Source of the DNA: Clostridia bacterium
Lineage (GTDB): Bacteria; Bacillota_A; Clostridia; Christensenellales; Aristaeellaceae
DNA: 10,625 nucleotides
Direction of reading: 5' to 3'
Assembly (NCBI GenBank): GCA_017412025.1
Contig: JAFQOY010000052.1
Location: forward strand, 1 to 10,625
Shown here: positions 4,054 through 8,752 of the stretch, piece after piece
How positions within the stretch are numbered: position 1 is the first letter of the stretch
How the letters are laid out: each line of letters opens with the position of its first letter
Program-made: the position numbers and the translations under genes
The notes under the pieces: generated by a model
Told to the model about the DNA's origin: nothing
Databases searched by the model: none
Seen by the model: only the letters and a program-made list of their open reading frames with translations

Positions 4054-5873
4054 ACGCGCTCACCTCCCTTTTGCTCATGGGCGTCCTTTTTCGCCTCTTC
4101 GTCAAAGTCGCCGCTGCCGTTTCCTGCCTGGCTGGCATATACCTCCTGATAGATGGCGTTGTGTTCAAGCAGGTTTGCCGGCGTGTCAAACGCGTCGACG
4201 CGGCCTTCGTCCATGACGATGATGCGGTCGGCGTCCTCGACGGAGGCGATGCGCTGGGCGATGATGATCTTTGTGGTTTCAGGCAGATAGGTTTTCAGCG
4301 CATTCCGGATTTTTGCGTCTGTCGCCGTGTCCACGGCGCTGGTGGAGTCATCGAGGATCAGCACCTTGGGCTTCCTGATGAGAGCGCGCGCGATGCACAG
4401 GCGCTGCTTCTGTCCGCCGGAAAGGTTTGTGCCGCCGCGCTCGATGCGGGTATTGTACTGCTCGGGCATGCGGCGGATGAATTCGTCCGCGCAGGCCAGG
4501 CGGCAGGCCTCCATGCACTGCTCCTCGGTCGCGTTTTCGTCGCCCCAGCGCAGGTTTTCAAGGATGGTGCCGGAGAAGAGCACGTTCTTCTGCAGCACGA
4601 CGGCGACCTCGCTGCGCAGCGTTTCGATATCGTAGCTGCGCACGTCCGCGCCGCCGACCCTGACGCTGCCGCCGTCCACATCGTACAGGCGGGAAATGAG
4701 GTTGACGAGGCTGGATTTGGAGGAGCCGGTGCCGCCGAGGACGCCGATGGTTTCCCCGGAGCGGATGTGCAGATTGACGTCGCTGAGCACGGGTTTTCCC
4801 GCCTCGTCGTCCGGCTTGTGATAGGAGAAAAACACGCTGTCAAAATCGATGGAACCGTCGCGCACGGATGTTTTTGCGTTTTCGGGCGATACGATATCCG
4901 CCTTCTCGTCAAGCACTTCGCCGATGCGCTGCGCTGCGGCCATGGACTGGGTGACCATGACGAAGATCATCGAGAGCATCATCAGGCTCATCAGGATGTT
5001 CATGACGTAAGAGAGCAGGCTGGTCAGCTGGCCGGTCGTCAGCCCTGTGCCGCCGACGATCATCTTCGCGCCGAACCAGCTGATGAGCAGAATGCACGTA
5101 TACACGCAGCCCTGCATGATCGGGGCGTTGAAGGAGACGATCTTTTCCGCAGAGACGGAGTTGCTGAACACGTCCTGAGCGGCGCGGGAGAACTTCTCGT
5201 TTTCATGCTTTTCGCGCACAAAGGCCTTCACCACGCGGATAGCGCCGACGTTTTCCTTGATCACGCTGTTGAGCGCGTCATATTTTTTAAACATCTGCTT
5301 GAAATAGCGCATGGCCATGGGCATGAGGATGCTCAGGGCGATGATCAGCACCGCCATCACGCCAAGGAAAATGACGGACAGCCTGGCGCTGATGGACAGG
5401 GCCATCACCAGCGCGACAATCAGCGTAATCGGCGCGCGGGTGCATACCTGCATCAGCATCTGGAACGCCATCTGAACATGATTGATGTCCGTGGTCAGGC
5501 GGGTGACAAGACCTGCGGTGGAGAATTTATCGATATTGGAAAAGGAAAAAGTCTGGATGTTTTCAAACATCGTTTCGCGCAGGTTGCAGGCGAAGCCCGT
5601 GCTGGCCTTTGCGCTGAAACGGCCGGCCATCACGCCGCAGAGCATGGCCAGCATGGCCATGACGGTCATAAGAAGGCCCGTGCGGATCACATGCCCCATA
5701 TCGCCTGCGGTGATGCCCTTGTCGATGATCGACGCGGTCAGGTAGGGAATCAGGATTTCCAGAATCACGCACAAAATCGTAAATACGGGGGAAAGAAGCG
5801 CATATTTGCTGTATTGCCCCACCTGCGGCGCAAGGCGTTTGACGACGCTGATTTTGCTCTGCTCTTTATTCAT
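4050..5873 (-). CDS. Heterodimeric ABC exporter, subunit with degenerate ATP site (TM287-like)
   Basis: This 607-residue half-transporter has about six membrane segments (residues 20-310) followed by an ATPase domain. Walker A reads GGTGSSKSS (about 380-388) and the signature is a perfect LSGGQ (484-488). Walker B is VLILDD, so the catalytic glutamate is aspartate (D509), and the switch histidine is Q540 (AQR in place of AHR). These are the hallmarks of the non-hydrolysing subunit in asymmetric bacterial exporters. The start at 5873 is chosen because GGAGG lies 6 nt upstream; a GTG at 5900 would add 9 residues. It is the first gene of the operon and overlaps the partner gene by 4 nt. A consensus promoter lies 67 nt upstream. 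The charged C-terminal tail (about 590-607) is likely flexible. Confidence 0.92.
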   Translation of the reverse strand: MNKEQSKISVVKRLAPQVGQYSKYALLSPVFTILCVILEILIPYLTASIIDKGITAGDMGHVIRTGLLMTVMAMLAMLCGVMAGRFSAKASTGFACNLRETMFENIQTFSFSNIDKFSTAGLVTRLTTDINHVQMAFQMLMQVCTRAPITLIVALVMALSISARLSVIFLGVMAVLIIALSILMPMAMRYFKQMFKKYDALNSVIKENVGAIRVVKAFVREKHENEKFSRAAQDVFSNSVSAEKIVSFNAPIMQGCVYTCILLISWFGAKMIVGGTGLTTGQLTSLLSYVMNILMSLMMLSMIFVMVTQSMAAAQRIGEVLDEKADIVSPENAKTSVRDGSIDFDSVFFSYHKPDDEAGKPVLSDVNLHIRSGETIGVLGGTGSSKSSLVNLISRLYDVDGGSVRVGGADVRSYDIETLRSEVAVVLQKNVLFSGTILENLRWGDENATEEQCMEACRLACADEFIRRMPEQYNTRIERGGTNLSGGQKQRLCIARALIRKPKVLILDDSTSAVDTATDAKIRNALKTYLPETTKIIIAQRIASVEDADRIIVMDEGRVDAFDTPANLLEHNAIYQEVYASQAGNGSGDFDEEAKKDAHEQKGGERV

Positions 5874-5939
5874 CGGTTTCCTCCACTTTATATTTTGCAC
5901 ATAAAACGTATTGCAGGCAATTGAACGGATGATTTCATT

Positions 5940-5968
5940 ATTATAGAAAAATAAAGAAGCGCTGTCAA
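5940..5968 (-). promoter_or_regulatory. Consensus promoter of the ABC exporter operon
   Basis: On the minus strand TTGACA (5968-5963) and TATAAT (5945-5940) are separated by exactly 17 bp, a perfect match to the housekeeping sigma consensus. The predicted leader is about 60 nt, with no terminator-like hairpin before the GGAGG at the exporter start. Confidence 0.88.
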
Positions 5969-5993
5969 TACATCCGCATACCGGTCAGTCTGC

Positions 5994-6022
5994 TTGACAA
6001 GGCATGATCGGCGTGATATGAT
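5994..6022 (+). promoter_or_regulatory. Promoter of the ABC-F leader and gene
   Basis: TTGACA (5994-5999) and TATGAT (6017-6022) are 17 bp apart on the plus strand. Its -35 box lies 25 bp from the -35 box of the divergent exporter promoter, so a regulator bound between them could affect both. Transcription would start near 6029, giving a leader of about 215 nt before the ABC-F ATG. Confidence 0.82.
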
Positions 6023-6056
6023 GGCGGCAGAAAGAACGAAGAGGTGAAACAAGACC

Positions 6057-6068
6057 ATGCGCATCTGA
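6057..6068 (+). CDS. Three-codon leader ORF (Met-Arg-Ile-stop) upstream of ABC-F
   Basis: ATGCGCATCTGA encodes only M-R-I. A GAGGTG ribosome binding site lies at 6041-6046, about 10 nt upstream. It sits roughly 28 nt into the predicted transcript, where leader peptides of ribosome-sensing attenuators are found. Its stop codon lies inside the segment (6064-6071) that can pair with the attenuator downstream. Very short leader ORFs are known ahead of antibiotic-induced ABC-F genes. A longer frame from a GTG at 6044 (61 residues) lacks a ribosome site and a protein-like composition. Translation is inferred, not shown. Confidence 0.55.
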   Translation: MRI

Positions 6069-6154
6069 TTCTGCATTTGATAAGCACGGCTCCGGCTGCG
6101 GAAAGCAGGCGGTTTGTTTTGCTGTGCCGGCTGCGGAATCAGAAAGCATGCTTT

Positions 6155-6185
6155 TCCTCTTGTTTGGTTATAACAGGGATTTTTT
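6155..6185 (+). terminator. Possible weak upstream terminator in the ABC-F leader
   Basis: TCCT and TTGTT (6155-6164, with a small bulge) can pair with AACA and GGGA (6172-6179) around a 7-nt loop, followed by six T (6180-6185). The stem is short and AU-rich, so it is much weaker than the hairpin at 6196-6227. Confidence 0.35.
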
Positions 6186-6195
6186 GCGCATGCGT

Positions 6196-6227
6196 TCCGC
6201 TTCCGGCGTGGCCGGGGCGGATTTTTT
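6196..6227 (+). terminator. Intrinsic terminator just before ABC-F
   Basis: TCCGC (6196-6200) pairs with GCGGA (6217-6221), and CCGG (6203-6206) with CCGG (6212-6215), around a 5-nt loop. Six T follow (6222-6227). The U run ends 6 nt before the ABC-F ribosome binding site, so it would block expression unless prevented from forming. Confidence 0.8.
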
Positions 6228-6243
6228 GATATAAGGGAGAATT

Positions 6244-7782
6244 ATGCTGACCGTATCACAACTGACCATCACGCACAGGAAGGACCTGACGTGCCTGATT
6301 GAAAATCTTTCTTTTTCTGTCGGACAGGGAGAACGCATTGCGCTCATCGGCGAGGAGGGCAACGGAAAATCGACCCTCATCCGCGCCATTGCCGGGGACA
6401 AGAGCATTGAGCAGTACGCAGAAATCAGCGGGAGAATCATAAACAGCGGCAGAGCGGCGTACCTGCCGCAGGAGCTGCCTGCGCATGACAGGGAAAAAAG
6501 CGCCTATGAATTCTTCTGCGATCATCCTGCATTCTTTGATCAGACGCCGCGCAGTCTGGGCGAAATCGCCTCAAGACTGCATATGCCCGCGGATGTGTTT
6601 TACAGCGAGCAGCGCATGGCGTCGTTTTCCGGCGGAGAGCGCATCAAGCTGCAGATCGCAAGGCTCCTGCTGGGCGAGCCGGAGCTGCTGCTGCTGGATG
6701 AGCCGAGCAACGACCTTGACGGAGAAACCGTGCGCTGGCTGGAGGGTTTTCTCGTTTCCTGCGGCCTTTCCGTGCTGTTTGTCTCCCATGACGAGACGCT
6801 CCTTCGCCGCGCGGCGACGGGCGTCATCCTCCTTGAGCGCCTGAGGCGCAGGCAGCAGCCGCGCGCCAGCGTATCCAGAGCGTCCTACGACGAGTTTGTC
6901 TCTGCCAGAGCGGATCTCTTTGCCCATCAGGAGCAGGTGGCCCGCAAGGAGCGGGAGGAACTCAAAAGCAAAATGCAGCGCTATAATCAGATCCGCCAGC
7001 GCGTGGAGCACGAACAGAATGCCATTTCCAGGCGCGATCCCGGCGGCGGAAGGCTGCTGAAAAAGAAGATGCACGCCGTCATGTCCATGGGCAGGCGGTT
7101 TGAGCGCGAGGCGCAGAATATGACGGACATGCCCGAGAGCGAGGAAGCCATCTTTGCCAGGCTTGAATGCGTCCCGCTGCCGTCCGGCAAGGCTGTGCTG
7201 AATCTTGCGCTTGACAATCTCATGATCGGAGAGCGCGTACTCTCAAAGGATATCCGCCTGACCGTGCGCGCGGATGAAAAGGTATGCATTACGGGCAGGA
7301 ACGGCGTGGGAAAATCCACGCTGCTGCGCTGCATCCGGGATGAACTGAAGGATCGCCGGGACGTCAGTGTGTTTTATATGCCTCAGGATCCGTCCGATAT
7401 GCTTGACATGAACAGTACGCCGGTTGAAGCGCTGACAAAAAGCGGCGAGAAGGAGGAGAATATACGTATCTGCGTAGCGCTTGGCTCGATGAAATTCACG
7501 GCCGATGAGATGAACCATCCATGCAGCGCGCTTTCCGGCGGACAGAAGGCTAAACTCATGTTTCTGTCCATGGCGATGTCGGGCGCTAATGTGCTGCTGC
7601 TGGATGAGCCCACGCGCAATCTCTCTCCGCTTTCAGGCCCTGTGGTGCGGGATCTCTTTGCGCAGTATCCGGGATGCATCATCGCGGTTTCTCACGATGT
7701 GCTGTTTGAAAGGGAGGTCTGCACGCGGCGGCTTGCGCTTGATGCGAATGGCCTTCATCAGACAGAATCAGACAGATTTTGA
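6244..7782 (+). CDS. ABC-F family ATPase, probable antibiotic-resistance ribosome protection protein
   Basis: The 512-residue protein has two ABC domains and no membrane segments. Domain 1 has Walker A GEEGNGKS (36-43), signature FSGGE (128-132), Walker B LLLLDEPS with E153 and switch H182. Domain 2 has Walker A GRNGVGKS (351-358), signature LSGGQ (430-434), Walker B LLLDEPT with E455 and H484. A long charged interdomain linker (about 200-300, rich in K/R/E/Q) corresponds to the tRNA-interaction region that reaches the ribosomal peptidyl-transferase centre. LDEPTRNLSPLSGP (453-466) resembles the Lsa/CplR-type resistance group. AGGGAG lies 4 nt before the ATG. Expression is probably attenuator-controlled by the leader upstream. 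A housekeeping ABC-F is the alternative; the leader argues for resistance. Drug spectrum cannot be predicted. Confidence 0.88.
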   Translation: MLTVSQLTITHRKDLTCLIENLSFSVGQGERIALIGEEGNGKSTLIRAIAGDKSIEQYAEISGRIINSGRAAYLPQELPAHDREKSAYEFFCDHPAFFDQTPRSLGEIASRLHMPADVFYSEQRMASFSGGERIKLQIARLLLGEPELLLLDEPSNDLDGETVRWLEGFLVSCGLSVLFVSHDETLLRRAATGVILLERLRRRQQPRASVSRASYDEFVSARADLFAHQEQVARKEREELKSKMQRYNQIRQRVEHEQNAISRRDPGGGRLLKKKMHAVMSMGRRFEREAQNMTDMPESEEAIFARLECVPLPSGKAVLNLALDNLMIGERVLSKDIRLTVRADEKVCITGRNGVGKSTLLRCIRDELKDRRDVSVFYMPQDPSDMLDMNSTPVEALTKSGEKEENIRICVALGSMKFTADEMNHPCSALSGGQKAKLMFLSMAMSGANVLLLDEPTRNLSPLSGPVVRDLFAQYPGCIIAVSHDVLFEREVCTRRLALDANGLHQTESDRF

Positions 7783-7865
7783 TAAAAAGTGGAGAATCGC
7801 GTCATAAATTTTAAGGAAAGTTCAAAATAAATGGTGTGTATATGGAGTAAAAAGGGCATATATGA

Positions 7866-7893
7866 TTGACAAGTGGAAAAAAATGGTTAAAAT
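7866..7893 (+). promoter_or_regulatory. Promoter of the MBL-fold hydrolase gene
   Basis: TTGACA (7866-7871) and TAAAAT (7888-7893) are separated by 16 bp. They lie in the AT-rich gap between ABC-F and the hydrolase, about 50 nt upstream of its start. No terminator is evident after ABC-F, so some readthrough is possible. Confidence 0.65.
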
Positions 7894-7945
7894 GGAGTTG
7901 TGAAGAAGCAGCAATACAGCAAAAAAATGATTGGGAAAGGAGATT

Positions 7946-8752
7946 ATGCCTGTGAAGGATATTGCGATTGAATATCTGGGAGGAAGCGGCTTCCTGATGG
8001 CGATCGGTGAAACCGGATTGCTCTTTGACGCCAGCGAACACGGACCGGACAAGCGCACTCTGCCGGACAGGGCCGCCCTCCGCGCTTTCAAAAAGCTGTA
8101 TGTCTTTGTGAGCCATCGCCATGAGGATCATTTTTCTCAGAGCATTTACGATCTGTGCGGCGAGGGCGCCGTGTATATCGTGGGATACGACGTGCCCCAG
8201 CCGCATCGCGGCGTGCGCATGCAGCCGGGAGAGACGCAGGGCTTTGGCCCGGTGTCGGTTACGGCCTGCGGCTCCACGGACGAGGGCGTTTCCTTCTTTG
8301 TGGAATATGCGGGTATTACGATCTTCCATGCCGGAGATCTCAATTTCTGGCACTGGCGGGATGAATCCTCCATTGCAGAGATCGAATCTGCGGAGAAGGC
8401 GTTTTACAGCTGCGTGGCGCAGATCCCGAAAAAGAAAATCGACGTCGCCTTTTTCCCTGTCGATCCCAGGCAGGGCAGCATGTATGACGCGGGCGCTGGG
8501 TATTTTGTGATGAGCGTCAAACCGAGAATCCTGATTCCCATGCATTTTCAGGGCAGAGGGGATGTGGCGCTCCGGTTTGCGCTCACCTGCGATGAGCGGC
8601 ATACGCGGGTTGTCGTGCTGGAAGAGCCGGGCGACGCCATTGACCTGAGCATACCCGATACGGATGAAACTGCGCCGGACAGGAAGCTGAAAGCGCTGCT
8701 GGCGGACGAGACGTTCGCAGAGATTGAAGACGCTGAACAGGCGCAGCGCTAA
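7946..8752 (+). CDS. MBL-fold metallo-hydrolase (UlaG-like superfamily)
   Basis: This 268-residue protein has the metallo-beta-lactamase fold. IEYLGGSGFLMAIGETGLLFDA (8-29) forms the first strands. The metal-binding HxHxDH motif is SHRHEDH (H57, H59, D61, H62). Later ligands are likely D131 in FHAGDLNFWHW and H200 in ILIPMHFQ. The layout matches the COG2220/UlaG-like group of hydrolases acting on phosphoesters, lactones or amides; the substrate is unknown. The ATG at 7946 follows AAGGAG by only 3 nt. A GTG at 7952, two codons later, has 9-nt spacing and could be the true start. The C-terminal tail is acidic and probably flexible. It has its own promoter, so it need not function with ABC-F. 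Confidence 0.85.
   Translation: MPVKDIAIEYLGGSGFLMAIGETGLLFDASEHGPDKRTLPDRAALRAFKKLYVFVSHRHEDHFSQSIYDLCGEGAVYIVGYDVPQPHRGVRMQPGETQGFGPVSVTACGSTDEGVSFFVEYAGITIFHAGDLNFWHWRDESSIAEIESAEKAFYSCVAQIPKKKIDVAFFPVDPRQGSMYDAGAGYFVMSVKPRILIPMHFQGRGDVALRFALTCDERHTRVVVLEEPGDAIDLSIPDTDETAPDRKLKALLADETFAEIEDAEQAQR

Follow-up and report, generated by a model that had tools for sequence, protein, structure and literature searches.

The chromosomal ABC-F gene in the window (the whole 10,625-nt stretch of Clostridia DNA analysed here) is very probably controlled by ribosome-mediated transcription attenuation. The initial annotation had proposed that a ribosome stalled by a drug on a short leader ORF encoding Met-Arg-Ile frees an antiterminator and switches on the gene. 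We found the parts of such a switch in the leader, their conservation among relatives and a change between alternative structures in computed folds, and these support the mechanism at the level of sequence and RNA folding. In the mechanism, where a drug as the signal, the sequence of steps during transcription and resistance through the ABC-F product are inferred, RNA polymerase would start near 6029 and a ribosome would load the Met-Arg-Ile ORF before 6126-6151 is made. With drug absent, the ribosome would finish the three codons and depart, and the ORF would pair with 6126-6151 to form an anti-antiterminator that would also bury the leader start codon; the terminator at 6196-6227 would then form. 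A peptidyl-transferase-centre drug holding the ribosome anywhere on the ORF would leave 6126-6151 free to capture the terminator 5' arm (6188-6207), and the polymerase would read into the ABC-F gene, the product of which would clear the ribosome.

The leader, its folds and the ABC-F gene

The ABC-F leader is ~215 nt long and has its own near-consensus promoter, from which transcription would start near 6029 (Table 1). This promoter, the Met-Arg-Ile ORF preceded by GAGGTG and the U-run terminator ahead of the ABC-F ribosome site had all been named by the initial annotation and were recovered here. Across 5500-8500 we counted 6 promoter-like sites compared to a shuffle mean of 1.8, and 7 terminator-like sites compared to 3.2 in shuffles. 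The spacing between GAGGTGA and the leader ATG is longish at 9 nt. The same GAGGTGA stands before the leader ORF in 8 of 13 close leaders, and GGGGTGA in 2 more. The ABC-F gene begins with ATG at 6244.

Table 1. Features of the ABC-F leader and gene in the window
Feature	Position	Strand	Evidence and remarks
ABC-F gene promoter, TTGACA-17-TATGAT	5994-6022	+	consensus scan, sigma-70-type, 11/12 consensus matches; TG before second hexamer
Leader-ORF Shine-Dalgarno, GAGGTGA	6041-6047	+	sequence
Leader ORF, ATGCGCATCTGA (ATG CGC ATC TGA, Met-Arg-Ile-stop)	6057-6068	+	sequence
Anti-antiterminator, long interrupted hairpin	6034-6165	+	minimum-energy fold, inverted repeat; own partner best against 41 swapped
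Shared strand, partner of leader ORF or of terminator 5' arm	6126-6151	+	inverted repeats; constrained folds
Weak hairpin (-5.4 kcal/mol), then T6 at 6180-6185, at antiterminator apex	6154-6179	+	computed fold
Terminator 5' arm and flank, pairing with 6126-6151 in antiterminator	6188-6207	+	inverted repeats; constrained folds
Intrinsic terminator, stem 6196-6221 (-17.8 kcal/mol), T6 6222-6227	6196-6227	+	terminator scan, fold energy
ABC-F gene Shine-Dalgarno, AAGGGAG	6233-6239	+	sequence; outside terminator stem
ABC-F ATPase, 512 aa	6244-7782	+	profile scores, structure model

The shared strand can pair in either of two ways. In the anti-antiterminator, a core of 6056-6075 paired with 6132-6150 covers both the start codon and the stop codon of the leader ORF. 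The pairing first noticed, between the stop region (6064-6071) and 6136-6143, is exact and extends to 6064-6075 with 6132-6143 at 92%; it lies within a competing hairpin that is far longer, with outer pairs at 6034-6165, and that in the minimum-energy fold also pairs 4 of the 7 bases of the leader Shine-Dalgarno. In the antiterminator, constrained folds pair 6126-6151 with 6188-6207. The initial annotation had described this element as 6126-6138 paired with 6195-6207, which is present (85% complementary), but its extent was understated because GCATGC at 6146-6151 also pairs with GCATGC at 6188-6193. The weak hairpin and T6 at the apex are pause-like and, by analogy with SL-2 of vmlR, may have a role in pausing. 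The sequence CCGGCTGCGGAA occurs twice in the leader, at 6092-6103 and at 6127-6138. When 6029-6243 is folded with the leader ORF blocked, the terminator 5' arm pairs with the second copy, and the terminator 3' arm (6208-6218) with 6089-6099, which overlaps the first copy; if the fold is extended to 6270, no such pairing of the first copy is seen.

A held ribosome was mimicked by keeping 32 nt single-stranded, with block starts in steps of 4 along the leader. Folded freely, the window leader formed the terminator stem with a probability of 0.92. This probability was 0.00-0.02 for blocks starting -16 to +4 of the leader ATG, compared to 0.86-0.94 for blocks starting -28 to -20 or +8 to +108. 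It made no difference to the outcome whether the block covered the start codon, codon 2 or codon 3, and the minimum-energy fold with the leader ORF blocked was the antiterminator. The proposal that a ribosome held on the leader ORF frees the antiterminator was therefore borne out in constrained folds, the terminator falling from 0.92 to ~0.01. The window fold had a z of -2.47, and 3 of 200 shuffles were as good. The duplex between the leader ORF and its anti strand was equalled by 1 of 300 shuffles and the antiterminator duplex by 5 of 300 (0 of 200 for each with slightly different segments). We also folded a truncated RNA that ends before the terminator 3' arm, which is nearer to events during transcription. 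The probability that the 5' arm was paired upstream rose from 0.02 in the free RNA to 0.83 with the ORF blocked, and 0 of 60 shuffles matched this. The gene Shine-Dalgarno was not freed in the induced fold, the mean unpaired probability of 6234-6239 being 0.49 free and 0.38 blocked.

The ABC-F product is a probable ribosome-protection factor. Its best family score, 265 bits to NF000355 (ribosomal protection-like ABC-F), was below the cut-off of 380, and among the best 25 of 196 families the named resistance ABC-F families scored far below their cut-offs (bits/cut-off: Vga 196/725, Sal 170/725, Msr 166/680, CplR (NF043038) 158/780, OptrA 145/1450 and Lsa 127/750). In the AlphaFold model (pLDDT 87.2), the two ATPase domains are separated by a helix of 50 residues (215-264) and one of 24 residues (268-291), and the best-ranked solved structures for this model were PoxtA, VmlR2, EttA and Sal(B). 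The predicted fold is that of an ABC-F protein; the top structure matches mix resistance and housekeeping members, which fold and sequence alone do not separate. The attenuator is the best argument for an inducible ribosome-protection role, with resistance as the presumed function. Clostridia bins and 'Candidatus Ventricola' are among the relatives at 70-75% identity. ABC-F relatives on plasmids comprised 2640 records, all below 60% identity, and the ten listed were at 28-30%.

Divergent from the ABC-F promoter, a perfect 12/12 sigma-70 consensus on the minus strand (TTGACA-17-TATAAT, 5968-5940) faces two MsbA-like ABC exporter genes, 5900-4050 and 4053-2143, the products of which probably form a heterodimer. 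Downstream, a further strong promoter-like site (11/12) at 7866-7893 lies in the interval that separates the ABC-F gene from a metallo-beta-lactamase-fold gene at 7931.

Three-codon leader ORFs among relatives

Genome contigs were scanned with a 16-protein alignment, and the best 80 of 230 stretches encoding a relative were taken; together with the window and 3 loci from contigs of a viral collection, these gave 84 loci. ORFs were counted if they started with ATG, were preceded by a ribosome site and lay within 450 nt upstream of the gene, and expectations were taken from stretches elsewhere in the same loci. Of the 84 loci, 60 had such an ORF with a length of exactly three codons, compared to 3.3 expected. 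The count was 59 before GAGTG was added as a ribosome site, and the extra locus was taken, by eye, as L053. Because related genomes are not independent, we also counted protein clusters, and found the ORF in 34 of 49 at 80% identity, 14 of 23 at 70% and 8 of 11 at 60%. Two-codon ORFs (19 compared to 5.0 expected) and one-codon ORFs (9 compared to 3.4) were also in excess, probably because Met-Met-X ORFs hold nested starts. Lengths of 4 to 20 codons reached at most ~2.5 times expectation, and none was enriched comparably to three.

The leader peptide is MRI in the window and in L004, L005, L007, L010, L011 and L013, and MRK in L003, L009, L016 and 8 of 12 bins titled Oscillospiraceae. Elsewhere it is MRM, MRR, MRE, MKR, MMK, MMR, MMM, MMN, MNK, MEK, MIK, MTR and more. 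ORFs starting Met-Arg were found at 34 of the 84 loci compared to 0.5% of random stretches. As a rule, the ORF is fixed at three codons across relatives, and codons 2 and 3 drift. The emphasis that the initial annotation had placed on Met-Arg-Ile itself was too narrow, as relatives keep the length and change these codons, and in the window fold it is immaterial which of the three codons the block is placed over. It is conceivable, although we would put it no higher than a tentative proposal, that geometry and not peptide sets the sensor throughout this uncharacterised ABC-F subfamily from gut Clostridia: with an ORF of three codons, a ribosome halted at initiation or at any first peptide bond would always cover the strand that controls the terminator, and codons 2 and 3 could drift. 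If true, such a sensor would be a general detector of arrest at translation start and would mark the whole subfamily as inducible ribosome-protection factors.

The variation in codons also bears on the nature of the signal. The same RNA switch could respond to general translation stress, such as slow first peptide bonds or a shortage of initiator or aminoacyl-tRNA, and a starved Arg or Ile codon would then hold the ribosome as well as a drug. As the window fold switches with a block over any of the three codons of the leader ORF, the cause of the ribosome's arrest is invisible to the RNA. However, the drift of codons 2 and 3 (MRI, MRK, MRR, MRE, MRM, MKR, MMK, MNK, MEK, MIK, MTR) speaks against the sensing of one amino acid, and the gene family and the cplR and vmlR precedents point to drugs, so that translation stress is an unlikely signal compared to the drug that we favour. 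A ligand-binding RNA switch or a protein-controlled terminator, to which the three-codon ORF is incidental, would be in keeping with a long stable leader with alternative folds. This is extremely improbable given that Rfam returned 0 matches at the gathering threshold in the whole window, that ORF length is strongly conserved although sequence varies, and that the shared strand has its complement in the ORF itself.

The three-codon ORF was absent from 5 of the 18 close loci (the window, L001-L016 and L039), namely L001, L002, L008, L012 and L039. By eye, L001, L002 and L039 have promoter-like sequence directly before the gene; they may be natural losses of the switch and may be constitutive. 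L012 comes from the same bin as L002 and is a second ABC-F copy, 68% identical to that of the window; ahead of the gene lies a hairpin with T6 that resembles a terminator, but a search there found no ORF of three codons. Leader ORFs of 7 or 8 codons starting Met-Tyr-Arg (MYRISCK, MYRVTCEQ and similar) were seen in L018, L026, L032, L035 and L046, mostly in Roseburia and Lachnospira relatives, and are possibly a longer version of the sensor. L025 and L065, from bins titled Erysipelotrichaceae and Solobacterium, have ATG AAG CTG TAA (Met-Lys-Leu) with AGG immediately before the ATG, and were left out of the counts as no ribosome site was found at a usual distance. L081-L083 are on contigs of 5.9-11.3 kb from a viral collection; their ABC-F relatives are at 48% identity and have, 220 nt upstream, an ORF encoding MIIR.

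The gene was present in 6 of 150 sampled genomes of the family (E 1e-150 or better); four of these repeat L007, L008, L009 and L016, and the new loci L088 and L089 enter no count. An exact search for the leader start with two patterns found none in 396 genomes of the order of L009. The patterns are strict, missing the leader of the L009 genome itself, and few sampled genomes hold the gene, and for these reasons the search reveals little on whether other genes use the switch.

Pairing and switching among relatives

Fold tests were performed on 54 of the 59 three-codon loci, with L020, L046, L081, L082 and L083 dropped by eye as unlikely leaders. Terminators were found in 53 of the 54 and none in L051. 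Leaders with a terminator near the gene and a middle that was long enough entered the duplex shuffle test (n = 42) and the truncated-RNA test (n = 40). A MAFFT alignment of 13 leaders placed the shared strand of the window a few columns out of register, and its pair counts were not used; pairs were instead read from duplexes anchored on the leader ORF. As duplexes always yield pairs, significance was taken from shuffles and swaps and not from pair counts.

The pairing of the leader ORF with its anti strand beat shuffles (at most 15 of 300 as good) in 33 of the 42 leaders, with a median z of -3.4, and in 7 of the 13 close leaders, with a median z of -2.1. The pairing is kept though the sequence changes, the ORF's own anti strand ranking a median of 4 against 41 others, and first in the window. 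Purely as illustration, positions +15 to +18 of the ORF region had 3, 3, 4 and 5 pair types in the best duplexes of the close group. The antiterminator duplex beat shuffles at the same threshold in 20 of the 42 leaders and in 3 of the 13 close ones, its own partner ranking a median of 8 against 41. The initial annotation had made conservation in orthologous leaders a check on its proposal, and this conservation holds for the ORF (60/84) and for its pairing with the anti strand (33/42), but the antiterminator duplex stands out in only 20/42.

In the truncated RNA, 30 of 40 leaders, including 11 of the 13 close ones, hid the terminator 5' arm when the ORF was blocked, by a change of 0.5 or more; the remaining ten, L005 and L015 among them, changed by less. 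In 23 of the 40, no more than 1 of 60 shuffles did as well. With the full terminator at equilibrium, blocking the ORF lowered the terminator probability from at least 0.7 to at most 0.3 in 10 of 53 leaders. As few leaders switch at equilibrium, the antiterminator would have to form first in most relatives. The presumed terminator hairpin hardly formed even in the free RNA in 5 of the 53 (L038, L045, L057 and L064, 0.00; L077, 0.28). In 10 leaders (L006, L010, L023, L030, L031, L050, L054, L063, L071 and L072) a block elsewhere cut the terminator to 0.15 or less, and in L050 it did so more than the ORF block. The sharp position dependence of the window is therefore not general.

These results also bear on whether the gene simply has a plain terminator and a constitutive leaky promoter, with pairings that arise by chance in GC-rich RNA. 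The leader is indeed GC-rich, 4 of 300 leaders with a shuffled middle equalled the terminator loss of the window upon ORF block, and some orthologues are without the leader ORF. Nevertheless, the three-codon ORF recurs in 60 of 84 loci and 34 of 49 protein clusters, and this conservation, together with the shuffle and partner-swap results, argues against chance and makes this a very unlikely account. Collectively, the three-codon ORF and its complementary strand are a strongly conserved feature, and a strong antiterminator is seen in the window and in many, not all, relatives.

Known systems

Induction of several resistance ABC-F genes in Firmicutes by ribosomes stalled on short leader ORFs was already named by the initial annotation, in agreement with published accounts of cplR (Met-Arg-Ile) and vmlR (Met-Ile-Asn). 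The leader ORF of C. difficile cplR encodes Met-Arg-Ile, with a group consensus of MR[I/M], and a start-codon mutant reporter was inactive (Obana et al. 2023, PMC10201436). The authors expect that pleuromutilins, lincosamides, streptogramin A and nucleoside drugs would stall ribosomes on such short ORFs with only a small influence of the sequence. Compared by published description, cplR and the window share a Clostridia host, a Met-Arg-Ile leader ORF held in a 5' hairpin, a terminator before the gene and an alternative antiterminator. As described there, the gene ribosome site of cplR is also hidden by the terminator stem, and attenuation of translation is enough for repression, whereas in the window the site lies outside the stem and is not freed. 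The window protein is not CplR, judging by its score of 158 bits against the NF043038 cut-off of 780.

B. subtilis vmlR has a Met-Ile-Asn ORF, an anti-antiterminator, an antiterminator with an apical hairpin and a terminator (Takada et al. 2022, PMC9226507). The window has the same three-helix logic, likewise with a three-codon ORF and a hairpin at the antiterminator apex. Among variants of the vmlR tripeptide, MDN and MDK match or exceed MIN in function, and MRK falls short of it. vmlR is also described there as having RNA polymerase pausing and a hairpin that sequesters the Shine-Dalgarno; in the matching place the window has a hairpin and T6 (6154-6185), a putative pause. The second, translational layer of cplR and vmlR, in which the gene ribosome site is hidden in the off state and free in the on state, was not found in the window folds.

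Listeria lmo0919 (rli53) is described as having, like the window, a leader ORF and a conditional terminator before an ABC-F gene (PMC11550727), and its leader is aligned with cplR leaders in Figure 3B of PMC10201436. The account of L. monocytogenes hflXr (rli80) likewise has a drug-induced ribosome stall on a leader ORF that switches a terminator, but with a 14-codon ORF, an RLR stall motif and a different gene family (PMC6310831). A search of the open-licence PMC literature found no paper on the leaders of the present ABC-F subfamily.

The attenuator predicts that drugs blocking formation of the first peptide bonds would induce this uncharacterised subfamily, which here comes mostly from metagenome-assembled Clostridia, and the three-codon ORF with its complementary strand provides a sequence signature for finding such genes without culture. 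The fixed length and free peptide make it testable whether these sensors read initiation arrest and not the nascent peptide. The type of switch is already known from the cplR and vmlR precedents; what the window and its relatives add to them is the host group, the uncharacterised ABC-F subfamily and a fixed three-codon length with a drifting peptide.
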